Shown here: positions 20,431 to 25,290 of the stretch, one piece after another | How positions within the stretch are numbered: the stretch's first letter is position 1 | Layout: each line of letters begins with the position of its first letter | IMG/VR virus record: IMGVR_UViG_3300050132_000377 | Location: 1-28,652 of that record | DNA length: 28,652 nt | Source of the DNA: a virus | Reading direction: 5' to 3' (one strand) | Translations under genes and position numbers: made by a program | The notes under the pieces: model-generated | Databases searched by the model: none | The model's input: only the letters and a program-made list of their open reading frames with translations | Told to the model about the DNA's origin: nothing

Positions 20431-21204
20431 ATGCCCTTTACCGTCCCGACATACGATGAGCTGTTAAACGCCATCCTGACCGACTACACCAACCAGCTGC
20501 CAGGTGCCGATAACTCCAAGGGCTCCATGATCTATATCAAGTCGGCCGCAATCGCCTCGGCCTTCTGGGGGCTCTATCAGCATCAGAGCTGGATCTCCAA
20601 CCAGATCTTTCCGGACACCGCCGCCACGGAAAACCTTGAGCATCATGCCTGGATTCGCGGCATCGTCAGGAAGAGCGGCGAGACCGATGCCGATCTGCTG
20701 TCCCGGCTTCTGGCTTACATCCGCCGCCCCCCGGCTGGTGGTAATCAATATGATTACGTCAACTGGGCGCTAACAATTACCAACGTCAAGGCCGCTTACT
20801 GTATCCCCCTGGGTCAAGGTCCCGGCTCCGTTGATGTTGTCATCGTTGCCGATCCAGCCACCGGCAGCGAGATCCCCAGTGCGGATCTGCTCGCCGAAGT
20901 GTGGGCATACATCGACAATCTGCGTCCGGTCACAGCCAAATACATCCGCGCATTGGCGCCGACAATTCTGCCGGAGAATGTGACAATCTCCGGAACCGGT
21001 CCAAACTATAACCCGGTCCAGGCCGCTGCCGATATCACCGCATATCTGAACGGCTTTACGCCGGCTCAGCCGCTCTACCGCAGCCAGCTGGGCAACTTTG
21101 CCATACTCAACGGTGCTGCCGACGTTATTGTCACGCTGCCGGCAGTAAACGTGGTCCCGACAACCACGCAGATCATCCGTCCAGGAGTGATCAGTGTCAC
21201 ATAG
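20431..21204 (+). CDS. Baseplate J-like wedge protein, Mu gp47-like (257 aa)
   Basis: Starts MPFTVPTYDELLNAILTDYTNQLPGADNSKGSMIYIKSAAIASAFWGLYQ, the standard opening of baseplate J proteins. It continues with DTAATENLEHHAWIRGIVRKSGETDADLLSRLLAYIRRPPAGGNQYDYVNWAL, which is highly characteristic. The C-terminal half is beta-rich. At 257 residues it is shorter than Mu gp47 (about 360), so an outer domain appears to be missing, though many Mu-like relatives are of this smaller size. It forms the baseplate wedge with the gp46- and gp48-like proteins. The start follows the previous stop directly. Confidence 0.92.
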   Translation: MPFTVPTYDELLNAILTDYTNQLPGADNSKGSMIYIKSAAIASAFWGLYQHQSWISNQIFPDTAATENLEHHAWIRGIVRKSGETDADLLSRLLAYIRRPPAGGNQYDYVNWALTITNVKAAYCIPLGQGPGSVDVVIVADPATGSEIPSADLLAEVWAYIDNLRPVTAKYIRALAPTILPENVTISGTGPNYNPVQAAADITAYLNGFTPAQPLYRSQLGNFAILNGAADVIVTLPAVNVVPTTTQIIRPGVISVT

Positions 21205-21739
21205 CGAAGCGCTCAAACTGCTGACTCCGCTGGCCCTGGGCGATGCTTACAATCGTGACATCGCGATCGAAGGGGCTCATCTGGATCAGGCCGGAGTGCG
21301 TGATGATAATCTGGTAGCTGAACTGTTTGCCAACAGCGCATTTGAGGTGCTTGAATCATGGGAGTGCATCTACGCCACGGCACCGTATTACGACGACACC
21401 CTGTTGATGCGGCAAAACCGAATCGTGCAGAAGATGAGTGAGCTGGGCCGCCTCGATCGCACCTATTTCATCCAACTGGCGGCCTCTCTGGGCTATGCCA
21501 TCGTTTTAGAAGAGTTGCATCCATTCATGCCCGGCTGGAGTGACGCCGGGGACGAGTTGGGTGATGATGTTTGTGATTGGTGCTGGCGGGTCTATTATGC
21601 CGAAGGTGATGCCTACGCCTACAGGGCCGGAATATCAGCCGCCGGGGAATGCCTGAGTTATTCATTCGCCGACATGATGCGCCAGGTATTCAACGACCTG
21701 AAACCTGCCGACACTTTTGTTGAATTTATAGAGGGATAA
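21194..21739 (+). CDS. Baseplate/tail protein, Mu gp48-like DUF2313 (181 aa)
   Basis: GTG start at 21194 inside the end of the J gene, with AGGAG (21183-21187) six bases upstream. The DUF2313 (YmfQ) pattern is clear: LLPxG-type start replaced by LTPLALGDAYNRDIAIEG, then ECIYATAPYYDDTLLMRQNRIVQKMSELGRLDRTYFIQLAASLGY near 53-97 and a C-terminal DMMRQVFNDLKPADTFVEF. It connects the baseplate wedge to the fibres. The usual LLPPG motif at the N-terminus is altered. Cys132 and Cys135 (CDWC) lie in a Trp/Tyr-rich loop typical of the family. Confidence 0.9.
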   Translation: MSHSEALKLLTPLALGDAYNRDIAIEGAHLDQAGVRDDNLVAELFANSAFEVLESWECIYATAPYYDDTLLMRQNRIVQKMSELGRLDRTYFIQLAASLGYAIVLEELHPFMPGWSDAGDELGDDVCDWCWRVYYAEGDAYAYRAGISAAGECLSYSFADMMRQVFNDLKPADTFVEFIEG

Positions 21740-21749
21740 GGAGGAACAC

Positions 21750-22148
21750 ATGGATAGAATAGACTCTTCCGACGGGCTGTTTGCCGAGGGTAATCCGGCT
21801 GGAGGTATTAAGGGCACCAAGGTGACAGCCGTCTGGCTCAACGCCCTCCAGGAGGAGGTAATCGGCAAGGGCGGCAATATCATCACCGCCGTCGTTGAAA
21901 CCACTCTGATCGAGGCCAACGGCGTCCTGTTTGCCAACCCGGCCGAAGGTGCTACAGTAGCCTATCATCTGCCTGTTTATGCTACTGTTGGGGCGCTCAA
22001 GCGCTATAAGATTAAAAACATCGGTCAAGGCGTGGCCAATATCGATGCGACTGATGCTAAAACCATCGACGGCGATTTAATCCTGGTAATGGCGCCCGGC
22101 GATCGCTGTGAATTGGCAAAAGACGGTACCAACTGGCAGACTATTTAA
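21750..22148 (+). CDS. Tail fibre N-terminal/adaptor-like protein (132 aa)
   Basis: SD AGGAGG (21739-21744). It starts MDRIDSSDGLFAEGNPAGGIKGTKVTAVWLNALQEEVI, the motif found at the virion-proximal part of many Mu-like tail fibres (xxGNPAxGxxGTxVTAxWLNAxQEE). It then has a small beta domain (residues 50-132) and stops. It is therefore a short fibre or an adaptor without receptor-binding region. The receptor-binding part may be the next gene, whose C-terminus looks like a fibre tip. Whether the two genes were once a single fibre is not visible: the 25-bp gap has its own SD. Confidence 0.8.
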   Translation: MDRIDSSDGLFAEGNPAGGIKGTKVTAVWLNALQEEVIGKGGNIITAVVETTLIEANGVLFANPAEGATVAYHLPVYATVGALKRYKIKNIGQGVANIDATDAKTIDGDLILVMAPGDRCELAKDGTNWQTI

Positions 22149-22173
22149 CATACTATTTAGGGAGGATTACACG

Positions 22174-23973
22174 ATGAAAAAAGGACTTTTTACACTGTTT
22201 TTACTGATTACGACTGCCCTGCCTGCACTGGCCGCACCGGGCAATACAAGCGGTCCCTGGGGCGTAGATGCAGGAGGATTCAGAAATCTTTCTACGGCCC
22301 TGGCTGCACCAGGCTATTCCGGAAAAACGTTTGTCATTTCTAAACCCATGGCCATCAACAATAAGACCCTACCTACAACCCGCCATATTAAATTTATCGG
22401 CGGTGGTTTCATTAACCCCGCAGCTGGGAAGGTATTCGATTTTGCTGGTCAAAACCCCAAGGCTGGTCTGTATCAAATATTTGGCGGTAGCGGTTCGATT
22501 ACAGGGCTAACAAAGGCATCTCCTGAATGGTGGCCAGGCATGAACTTGGGGCCAGCTGTGGCTGCGATGCCTAATGGTGGTGTTGTGAAGTTGCAGATAG
22601 CAACCTATATTTCACCCTTTATGAGTGATGCAACTACTATGGGTACAAATAATATCCACTTTGCTGGCTCTAAAATGCCCTCAGTAAACGCCGGAAGTAC
22701 GGCGCTGGAAAAAGGAACCATAATTCAAGGGGTATTTTCAATTGAGGCCCATAATGCGTCAGTGAGTGATCTTGGTGTAGATGTGGGTTCAGACTACTGT
22801 ACTGCTGTAGGAGCTACAGCAGGATTGGAGGGGTTAGATGTTACAGGACTAGGTACATTCCCATCACCAACAAACCCATGGAAAGGATTTAGGGCAGAAA
22901 ATATTCAAGTTTTAGGACAAAGCCCCACTACAGTAGCACATGCCTTTCTTATAGATTATGTTGATGGGGCTTTCATCAAAAACATTCACACCAAGTATAA
23001 TGAGCATGGCATCGTATTTAAGGCATTGAACACAACAGCAAGTGGGTTATGGGCTACAGATCATTATGCTGATGGATTGATAATTAGATCGAGCTACTAT
23101 GCAAATGAGAGCAATTCCAATTACTCAGGTATCAATATCACAGCAACTGTTCAGGGGGGTGGTGGAGGACTTCGCATAAGTGCGGAGGATGCCTACATGA
23201 ACAATGAAAATATATCTGATGTTTATGTCAATAATACAACCTATGGATTTTGGACAACTGGGACGGCTCCGTGGGGTAATAGCGGAATGAACCTGACCAA
23301 TGCCAATGTAACTAATATTGGTTCTGGCGGTTATGGGCCGGGTGTTGGATACCAGATTGACCCTACAACAGACCACCTCACTATGAATAATGTGACTGCA
23401 CAACATGGGCTTAGTACCGGTTTTGTGGTTGCGCGTGGCGCGACAAATATTAAAATAAATAATGCAAACTCACTAACCAATGCAGGTTATGGGTATGCAG
23501 TAGATAGTTTGAGCACCAAGATTACAAATAGTAATAGTAATAGTAATACTGCTGGTGGTCTCTATGTTACGACCGCTGTGTCAGTAGATGGCAGCACCTT
23601 CAGTGACGGCATTACTGTTTCTGGGGGTGGAAAGATTATTAACCCCAATGTCCCTTTTACTCCGGTTCATCCCACGCTCCTTAACTCTTGGGTGTATTTT
23701 GGTAATGGCCCTGATGTTTTTTGGTGGCAGGATTATGGCCGTGTGAGATTGATGGGGCTTATCAAAAGTGGCACACTTAGTACAACTATTTTTACACTCC
23801 CTGTAGGGTTCAGACCAGCAACAAACAAACGATTTCCAGTGAGTTGCTGGAACGGGACAACAGGCGTATATGGTGAATTACTTATAGCCTCGACCGGGGA
23901 TGTAAGCTTGCAGTATGGAGCAAACGGTTATCTTTCTCTTGATGGAGTAGAGTTCAGTATGGCTAATGACTAA
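22174..23973 (+). CDS. Beta-helix tail-spike-like protein with N-terminal signal peptide (599 aa)
   Basis: ATG 22174 after a strong SD (GGGAGG, 22160-22165). Residues 1-20 form a textbook Sec signal peptide (MKKGLFTLFLLITTALPALA, AxA cleavage site), odd for a phage structural gene. Residues 20-480 are Gly/Asn/Ser/Thr-rich repeats of the right-handed beta-helix (pectate-lyase-like) kind seen in tail spikes and depolymerases. Residues about 505-599 (SWVYFGNGPDVFWWQDYGRVRLMGLI then IFTLPVGFRP then YLSLDGVEFSMAND) resemble a fibre-tip receptor-binding domain. The base composition is lower in GC than the baseplate genes, suggesting recent exchange. It could be a virion spike, or a secreted enzyme or decoy. 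Catalytic residues are not evident. Confidence 0.8.
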   Translation: MKKGLFTLFLLITTALPALAAPGNTSGPWGVDAGGFRNLSTALAAPGYSGKTFVISKPMAINNKTLPTTRHIKFIGGGFINPAAGKVFDFAGQNPKAGLYQIFGGSGSITGLTKASPEWWPGMNLGPAVAAMPNGGVVKLQIATYISPFMSDATTMGTNNIHFAGSKMPSVNAGSTALEKGTIIQGVFSIEAHNASVSDLGVDVGSDYCTAVGATAGLEGLDVTGLGTFPSPTNPWKGFRAENIQVLGQSPTTVAHAFLIDYVDGAFIKNIHTKYNEHGIVFKALNTTASGLWATDHYADGLIIRSSYYANESNSNYSGINITATVQGGGGGLRISAEDAYMNNENISDVYVNNTTYGFWTTGTAPWGNSGMNLTNANVTNIGSGGYGPGVGYQIDPTTDHLTMNNVTAQHGLSTGFVVARGATNIKINNANSLTNAGYGYAVDSLSTKITNSNSNSNTAGGLYVTTAVSVDGSTFSDGITVSGGGKIINPNVPFTPVHPTLLNSWVYFGNGPDVFWWQDYGRVRLMGLIKSGTLSTTIFTLPVGFRPATNKRFPVSCWNGTTGVYGELLIASTGDVSLQYGANGYLSLDGVEFSMAND

Positions 23974-24011
23974 GGATAACAGTAAATAAAACGAGGTAAC
24001 AAGAAGAGGCA

Positions 24012-24045
24012 GCGACCGGACCATGCTATAACATGATCCGGTCGC
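24012..24045. repeat. Long inverted repeat after the spike gene
   Basis: GCGACCGGACCATG (24012-24025) and CATGATCCGGTCGC (24032-24045) pair over 14 bases with one mismatch around a 6-base loop. No T-run follows on either strand, so it is not a classic intrinsic terminator. It may end or process the long tail mRNA before the methyltransferase gene, or act as a protein-binding site. Confidence 0.6.
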
Positions 24046-24063
24046 CAACCCACAGAATTAGGC

Positions 24064-24146
24064 TGTGAGCCAGCCAAGGCTGCCCCGCTCCGATCAGAGC
24101 ACGGGGAGCCTACCACAAACTCCAAAAACTGACAAGGAGGCTCACA
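24064..24146 (+). promoter_or_regulatory. Structured leader that can hide the Dam gene ribosome binding site
   Basis: TGTGAGCC (24064-24071) is exactly complementary to GGCTCACA (24139-24146), which includes the last GG of the Shine-Dalgarno AAGGAGG (24134-24140). The intervening RNA contains its own hairpin (24077-24111; AGGCT-CCCCG-CTC paired with GAG-CGGGG-AGCCT, with small bulges). The fold would present a long stem with the SD at its base, three bases before the ATG, a layout suited to translational control. Mu mom is controlled at its SD by Com. Whether a similar regulator acts here is unknown. Confidence 0.5.
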
Positions 24147-24148
24147 CA

Positions 24149-25214: not shown

Positions 25215-25290
25215 TGGTGGGCACAGTTGGGATCGAACCAACGACCTGCCGATTAAGAGTCGGCTGCTCTACCAGCTAAGCTATGTGCCC
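25215..25290 (-). tRNA. tRNA-Lys (anticodon CTT)
   Basis: A full 76-nt cloverleaf on the minus strand: acceptor GGGCACA/TGTGCCC, D-arm GCTT...GAGC, anticodon stem GCCGA/TCGGC with loop CTCTTAA (anticodon CTT, reading AAG), T-arm GTTGG-TTCGATC-CCAAC, and an encoded ACCA end. It accounts for the chance ORF ending in the peptide LGSNQRPAD on the plus strand. Confidence 0.97.

Follow-up and report, generated by a model that had tools for sequence, protein, structure and literature searches.

Which bacteria a phage can infect is determined by its tail fibres, and in standard accounts these are added to the particle in the cytoplasm. The window analyzed here, a 28,652-base IMG/VR record with a Mu/P2-like tail operon of a virus integrated in a relative of Geobacter, contains a spike gene that begins with an apparent export signal (Table 1), raising the question of whether the product leaves the cytoplasm and, if so, whether it is still part of the virion. 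An earlier note on this DNA had proposed that export would make the protein a secreted depolymerase, a receptor decoy, or a surface-changing protein released by the lysogen or at infection, in contrast to virion proteins, which normally stay in the cytoplasm for assembly.

Table 1. Features of the spike gene and the genes preceding it, in window coordinates
Feature	Position	Strand	Details
Gp48-type baseplate wedge gene	21194..21739	+	PF10076 E 1.7e-15, phrog_203 E 3.4e-34
Fibre adaptor	21750..22148	+	132 residues; residues 1-38 match PHROG tail fibre families
Shine-Dalgarno sequence GGAGG	22161..22165	+	8 nt 5' of spike ATG
Signal-bearing tail-spike gene	22174..23973	+	599 residues
Predicted Sec/SPase-I signal peptide	22174..22233	+	20 codons, predicted cleavage between ALA and A
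Conserved N-domain of mature spike, candidate docking domain	22240..22548	+	
Variable trunk, presumed beta-helix	22549..23541	+	sequence pattern; low-confidence model
Fibre-tip-like C-terminal module	23542..23970	+	phrog_11445 E 1e-9; tblastn

The spike ORF (22174-23973) starts with MKKGLFTLFLLITTALPALAAPGNTSGPWG, and positions 22174-22236 correspond to MKKGLFTLFLLITTALPALAA; the putative signal reads MKKGLFTLFLLITTALPALA followed by A, with the cleavage point between the two. Two lysines, an uncharged hydrophobic core, and ALA before A at -3/-1 were present in this signal, and neither a lipobox nor a twin arginine was found in it. It scored 3.69 with a rule-based caller (cut-off, 3.2) and 12.7 with the von Heijne prokaryotic matrix (usual cut-off, 3.5; site after residue 20), these being scores of our own caller and of a matrix in which 12 of 15 columns sum to 36 and three fall short, and not of SignalP. 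With both methods calling Sec/SPase-I, the signal-peptide prediction that had been proposed as a check agreed with the earlier description of a textbook export signal with an AxA site. The ATG also has a good ribosome-binding site. Judged from these sequence features, export of the spike by Sec is well supported.

Signal calls were rare in the comparison sets. The spike was the sole gene called among the 31 window genes checked, none of 55 tail-collar proteins from IMG/VR was called, and of 67 structural genes lying upstream of fibre cassettes just two were called, both of which resemble fibre proteins. Those two ORFs (L004 3026-4312 and L014 268-1806) contain a repeat of the kind ATKLQTARTINGV.FDG and represent a second signal-bearing fibre-like gene shortly 5' of a gpW-like baseplate gene. 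A wrongly chosen start codon was ruled out by a Shine-Dalgarno-like motif 5' of the signal start in 20 of the 21 entries examined; an alternative GTG start of the spike at 22108 falls within the adaptor gene. A chance hydrophobic N terminus was ruled out by the background rates and by conservation of the signal.

That conservation was assessed in relatives found by searches with the adaptor, with the whole protein, and with an N-domain alignment from which the signal was omitted. Seven close relatives lie in tail operons (L002, L003, L004, L005, L014, L017, and L018; L003 is a Geomonas limicola prophage [L015]), and the signal was present in all seven, as the earlier note had suggested checking in sister phages. 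Homologues starting after the signal, which that note would have counted against export, were found among distant relatives (L055, L064, and L069) and not among the seven closest. By position, the relatives' 20-residue signals are just 25 to 70% identical to that of the window, with charge, hydrophobic core, and AxA site all retained. When random mutation without selection was simulated to the same DNA divergence, each pair being handled alone, a callable signal survived in 2 to 16% of trials.

The genomic setting is that of a tail operon, as had been claimed: baseplate J, Gp48, wedge, and hub genes lie 5' of the spike and are followed by the adaptor, the Gp48-type gene being the final baseplate gene ahead of the fibre cassette. 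The adaptor has a Mu-type N terminus and a C-terminal knob ending GTNWQTI, carries no signal, and is the only other fibre gene adjoining the spike; the same gene also precedes the spike in the seven close relatives. Fusion of adaptor and spike by frameshift or read-through was ruled out, since the frame relation varies among phages and the spike frame in L003 and L004 is open for just 1 to 2 codons upstream. A Dam-type methylase gene comes after the spike, and the right end of the window, beyond a tRNA-Lys gene (25215-25290), is host DNA with up to ~82% identity to Geobacterales genomes.

Between the spike and the Dam-type gene, a conserved structured RNA leader was observed (window positions 24005-24148; fold z, -6.1), for which there was no Rfam match at gathering score. 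Ten pairs of its first consensus hairpin are changed on both sides across 17 sequences, and an upstream TGTGAGCC can pair with GGCTCACA, which adjoins the Shine-Dalgarno sequence. One motif placed the leader on 24 IMG/VR contigs, nearly always before Dam-type or Com-like genes (the following gene in L198 and L199 resembles a Com-like one). The leader is a candidate translational switch.

The mature spike is organized as expected of a tailspike, with a conserved N-terminal part and a divergent receptor-binding remainder: identity between the window and its relatives is 48 to 71% over the N-domain and 21 to 25% over the rest. Residues 457-598 match the phage minor-tail family phrog_11445 (E 1e-9) and are 34% identical to Streptomyces phage minor tail proteins (tblastn), in keeping with the fibre-tip-like end that had been described; INPHARED phages, among the matches listed, matched the spike through this C-terminal part only. 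A beta-helix trunk is plausible, although the Pfam search gave no hit. The full-length AlphaFold model was too poor for use; the N-domain alone modelled well and weakly resembled parts of tailspike structures. No solved relative was found by sequence, and no plasmid homologue was found.

The adaptor knob is 62 to 66% identical between the window and L002 or L018, whereas the adaptor N termini of these two are of a different type from the window's (23 to 30%), so that phages seem to exchange knob and spike together as one cassette. Strict covariation of knob and N-domain was not upheld because of L014, in which an N-domain 71% identical to that of the window is paired with a knob of 40% identity, and this weakens the argument for docking of one on the other.

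The N-domain was found in 21 of 141 Geobacterales genomes, and larger stretches around the matches were read; many of these loci had been found through homology of the spike and not of its signal. Geobacterales prophages of several tail types often combine a signal-less adaptor with at least one signal-bearing distal fibre protein. The T7-type adaptor of L055 and L068 (phrog_1640; PF03906 for L068) ends after about 250 residues, lacks a signal, and is followed by a gene for a fibre-like protein that has one; L054, L065, and L069 are similar but have other tail genes (tail types according to our reading of gene order). Three signal-bearing genes occur in the L053 tail region, and signals recur in fibre genes of the tail loci L052 to L054, L056, L065, L069, L098, and L100. 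Overall, 25 of 32 fibre-cassette proteins scored at least 3.2 with the rule-based caller, and two more scored lower; the protein scored for L069 is a different ORF from the L069 beta-helix protein (end at 1513), which has no signal at its start.

Loci containing PF10076 (Gp48) were picked regardless of signal. Four of the seven such tail loci in Geobacterales have a fibre-cassette signal (L003, L014, L098, and L100) and three do not (L096, L097, and L099), compared to none seen in the fibre genes of seven comparable tail loci from other Desulfobacterota, of which L124 was hard to read (one-sided Fisher probability, 0.035, calculated by hand on very small numbers). No signals were seen in the P2-type gpI loci of Geobacterales. 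A candidate Tfa-like fibre-assembly gene follows the fibre in signal-less loci (L096 2398-2934, L097 5687-6226, and L122 1728-2198); none was seen by eye in the signal-bearing loci read. The signal-bearing fibre proteins of L054 (7877-9097) and L068 (7909-8550) end in a recurrent cysteine-rich sequence, CWK.GG..GYCS....DG.CTC, of a kind that would fit an oxidising compartment. Disulfides as a general reason for export were not supported (cysteine, 0.78% versus 0.57%).

By sequence comparison, gain and loss of signals among the relatives take place precisely at the mature N terminus. In L100 (656-1612), MFKRALFTLLILLLPAAAMA stands directly before GKTVFVDGNP of a baseplate adaptor or collar fibre (PHROG tail fibre, E 1e-39), whose counterparts in L096, L097, and L099 start M-GKTVF, M-AKTVF, and M-SKTVF; the internal ATG of the L100 gene is not preceded by a Shine-Dalgarno sequence. 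Likewise, L064 (M-AILVVSTNGKTISK) is the signal-less counterpart of L052 (signal, then AILVFSSNGSYTTK), and genome G046 contains both an N-domain with a signal (L066) and a similar one lacking it (L069). On the N-domain tree, the presence of a signal requires three changes, at least two of them forced by well-supported branches. In L063, an N-domain match and a T7-type adaptor occur in a single chain without a signal, so that this domain has a natural place in a virion-type fibre. Signal-less versions of the spike domains occupy equivalent operon positions in other phages, which would also suit a signal left over from a host secreted gene, or one acting as an uncleaved docking helix, with the spike remaining in the cytoplasm; host secreted homologues could have donated such a relic. 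This is the least probable of the readings weighed here, as charge, hydrophobic core, and AxA site have been kept despite divergence, and a docking helix would neither need an AxA site nor precede an otherwise complete adaptor such as that of L100.

Copies of the spike were also found in host genomes, and host and phage copies are interleaved in the N-domain tree. Signal-bearing homologues beside polysaccharide genes (L049, L051, L058, L060, and L067) are possible host secreted glycan enzymes and possible donors of the phage signal. At L061 (4598-6646), a signal, a podoviral-type adaptor, and the N-domain were found together at a host locus away from phage genes seen, and the same adaptor type occurs without a signal in L064. 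There appears to be gene exchange between phage and host, and the first phage signal may have been donated by a host secreted protein.

The homologues beside polysaccharide genes also bear on the main rival explanation, in which the spike is made by the lysogen or dying cell and exported but never joins the virion, acting instead, in solution or bound to the envelope, as a polysaccharide depolymerase or a receptor mask, with the short adaptor-knob protein serving as the virion's own fibre. The signal and tailspike-like features of the spike fit this explanation, and an exported glycan enzyme with a tailspike fold is known in Pantoea (PMC7949094). We consider it less likely than a spike that joins the virion, since it leaves unexplained why a conserved N-domain is joined to a varying remainder, why the gene has a fixed place after the adaptor, and why the L100 adaptor has a signal. 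Signal-bearing orphans located away from intact tail operons (L047, L048, L050, and L061) could instead point to a surface adhesin of the lysogen that serves the host and not the phage, much as phage-tail-fibre-like MAT proteins are displayed on the Bdellovibrio surface (PMC10769870). Such a role is improbable for a spike that stays in the tail operon, beside structural genes that look intact, and has relatives on IMG/VR viral contigs.

The reading that we tentatively prefer, at somewhat less than an even chance, is that the gene encodes a distal receptor-binding spike that is exported by Sec and joins the particle at lysis. In its favour are the N-domain, which is conserved while the remainder varies, the constant position of the gene behind the adaptor, the joint exchange of knob and spike, and L100. 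We infer export and cleavage, binding of the N-domain to the adaptor, and joining at lysis. Incorporation of the adaptor into the baseplate would take place in the cytoplasm, while the spike would pass SecYEG as a Sec precursor, undergo cleavage after ALA-20, and reach its fold in the periplasm. The particle would encounter the periplasmic spike at lysis, and the tail would be completed there, outside the cytoplasm, by docking of the conserved N-domain on the adaptor knob. In extracts, P22 and T4 particles that are otherwise complete can acquire their spikes and fibres, respectively, which makes joining at lysis physically reasonable. Against this reading, the signal is missing in L064, L096, L097, L099, and the P2-type loci, export has no apparent reason, and cysteines are not clearly enriched. 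Of the claim in the earlier note, export held up (the signal, its presence in 7/7 relatives, and its recurrence in Geobacterales), but the step from export to a nonvirion role is only a possible one, in view of the conserved N-terminal and variable C-terminal parts, the lone 132-residue adaptor, and the signal-less counterparts.

It is possible, and put forward a shade more cautiously than the reading of the window gene, that several Geobacterales phage lineages assemble adaptors inside the cell, while Sec-exported fibres mature in the periplasm and attach at lysis. If true, tailed phages would have an assembly route that spans two compartments. The recurrence of a distal-fibre signal across different tail types in one order points to such a route or to an existence of the fibre apart from the virion, and either would alter the understanding of host range, superinfection, and lysis in these phages. 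Isolate lysogens exist, e.g., Geomonas limicola (L015/L126), which carries such a prophage (L126 3694-5427).

To our knowledge, known tailspikes and tail fibres lack a signal and are both synthesised and attached in the cytoplasm, and in the open literature, outside which most subscription papers lie, we found no report of signal peptides on the tail fibres of tailed phages. Lysins and an esterase are phage proteins that take, or are predicted to take, the host Sec route (Lys44, PMC6116005; PBR31 gp40, PMC10975493; also PMC8878798), but unlike the spike these are lytic enzymes or hydrolases and not receptor-binding tail parts. WceF of Pantoea stewartii, encoded beside exopolysaccharide genes, is likewise exported and has a tailspike fold, but it is a host enzyme with a Tat signal and does not occur in a phage (PMC7949094). 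The MAT proteins of Bdellovibrio, a deltaproteobacterium in the old sense, are phage-fibre-like trimeric proteins with a signal peptide, displayed on the predator surface, and are described as sharing a beta-rich domain of ~130 residues after the signal; the likeness to the spike is taken from that description, which presents them as host proteins and apparently not as components of any phage tail operon (PMC10769870). The fibres of P22, Sf6, Mu/P2-type phages, and T7 (gp17) resemble the spike in tail-operon position, adaptor, conserved N-terminal part with a variable remainder, and fibre-tip module, but differ in that here the chain is split and its distal part bears a Sec signal.
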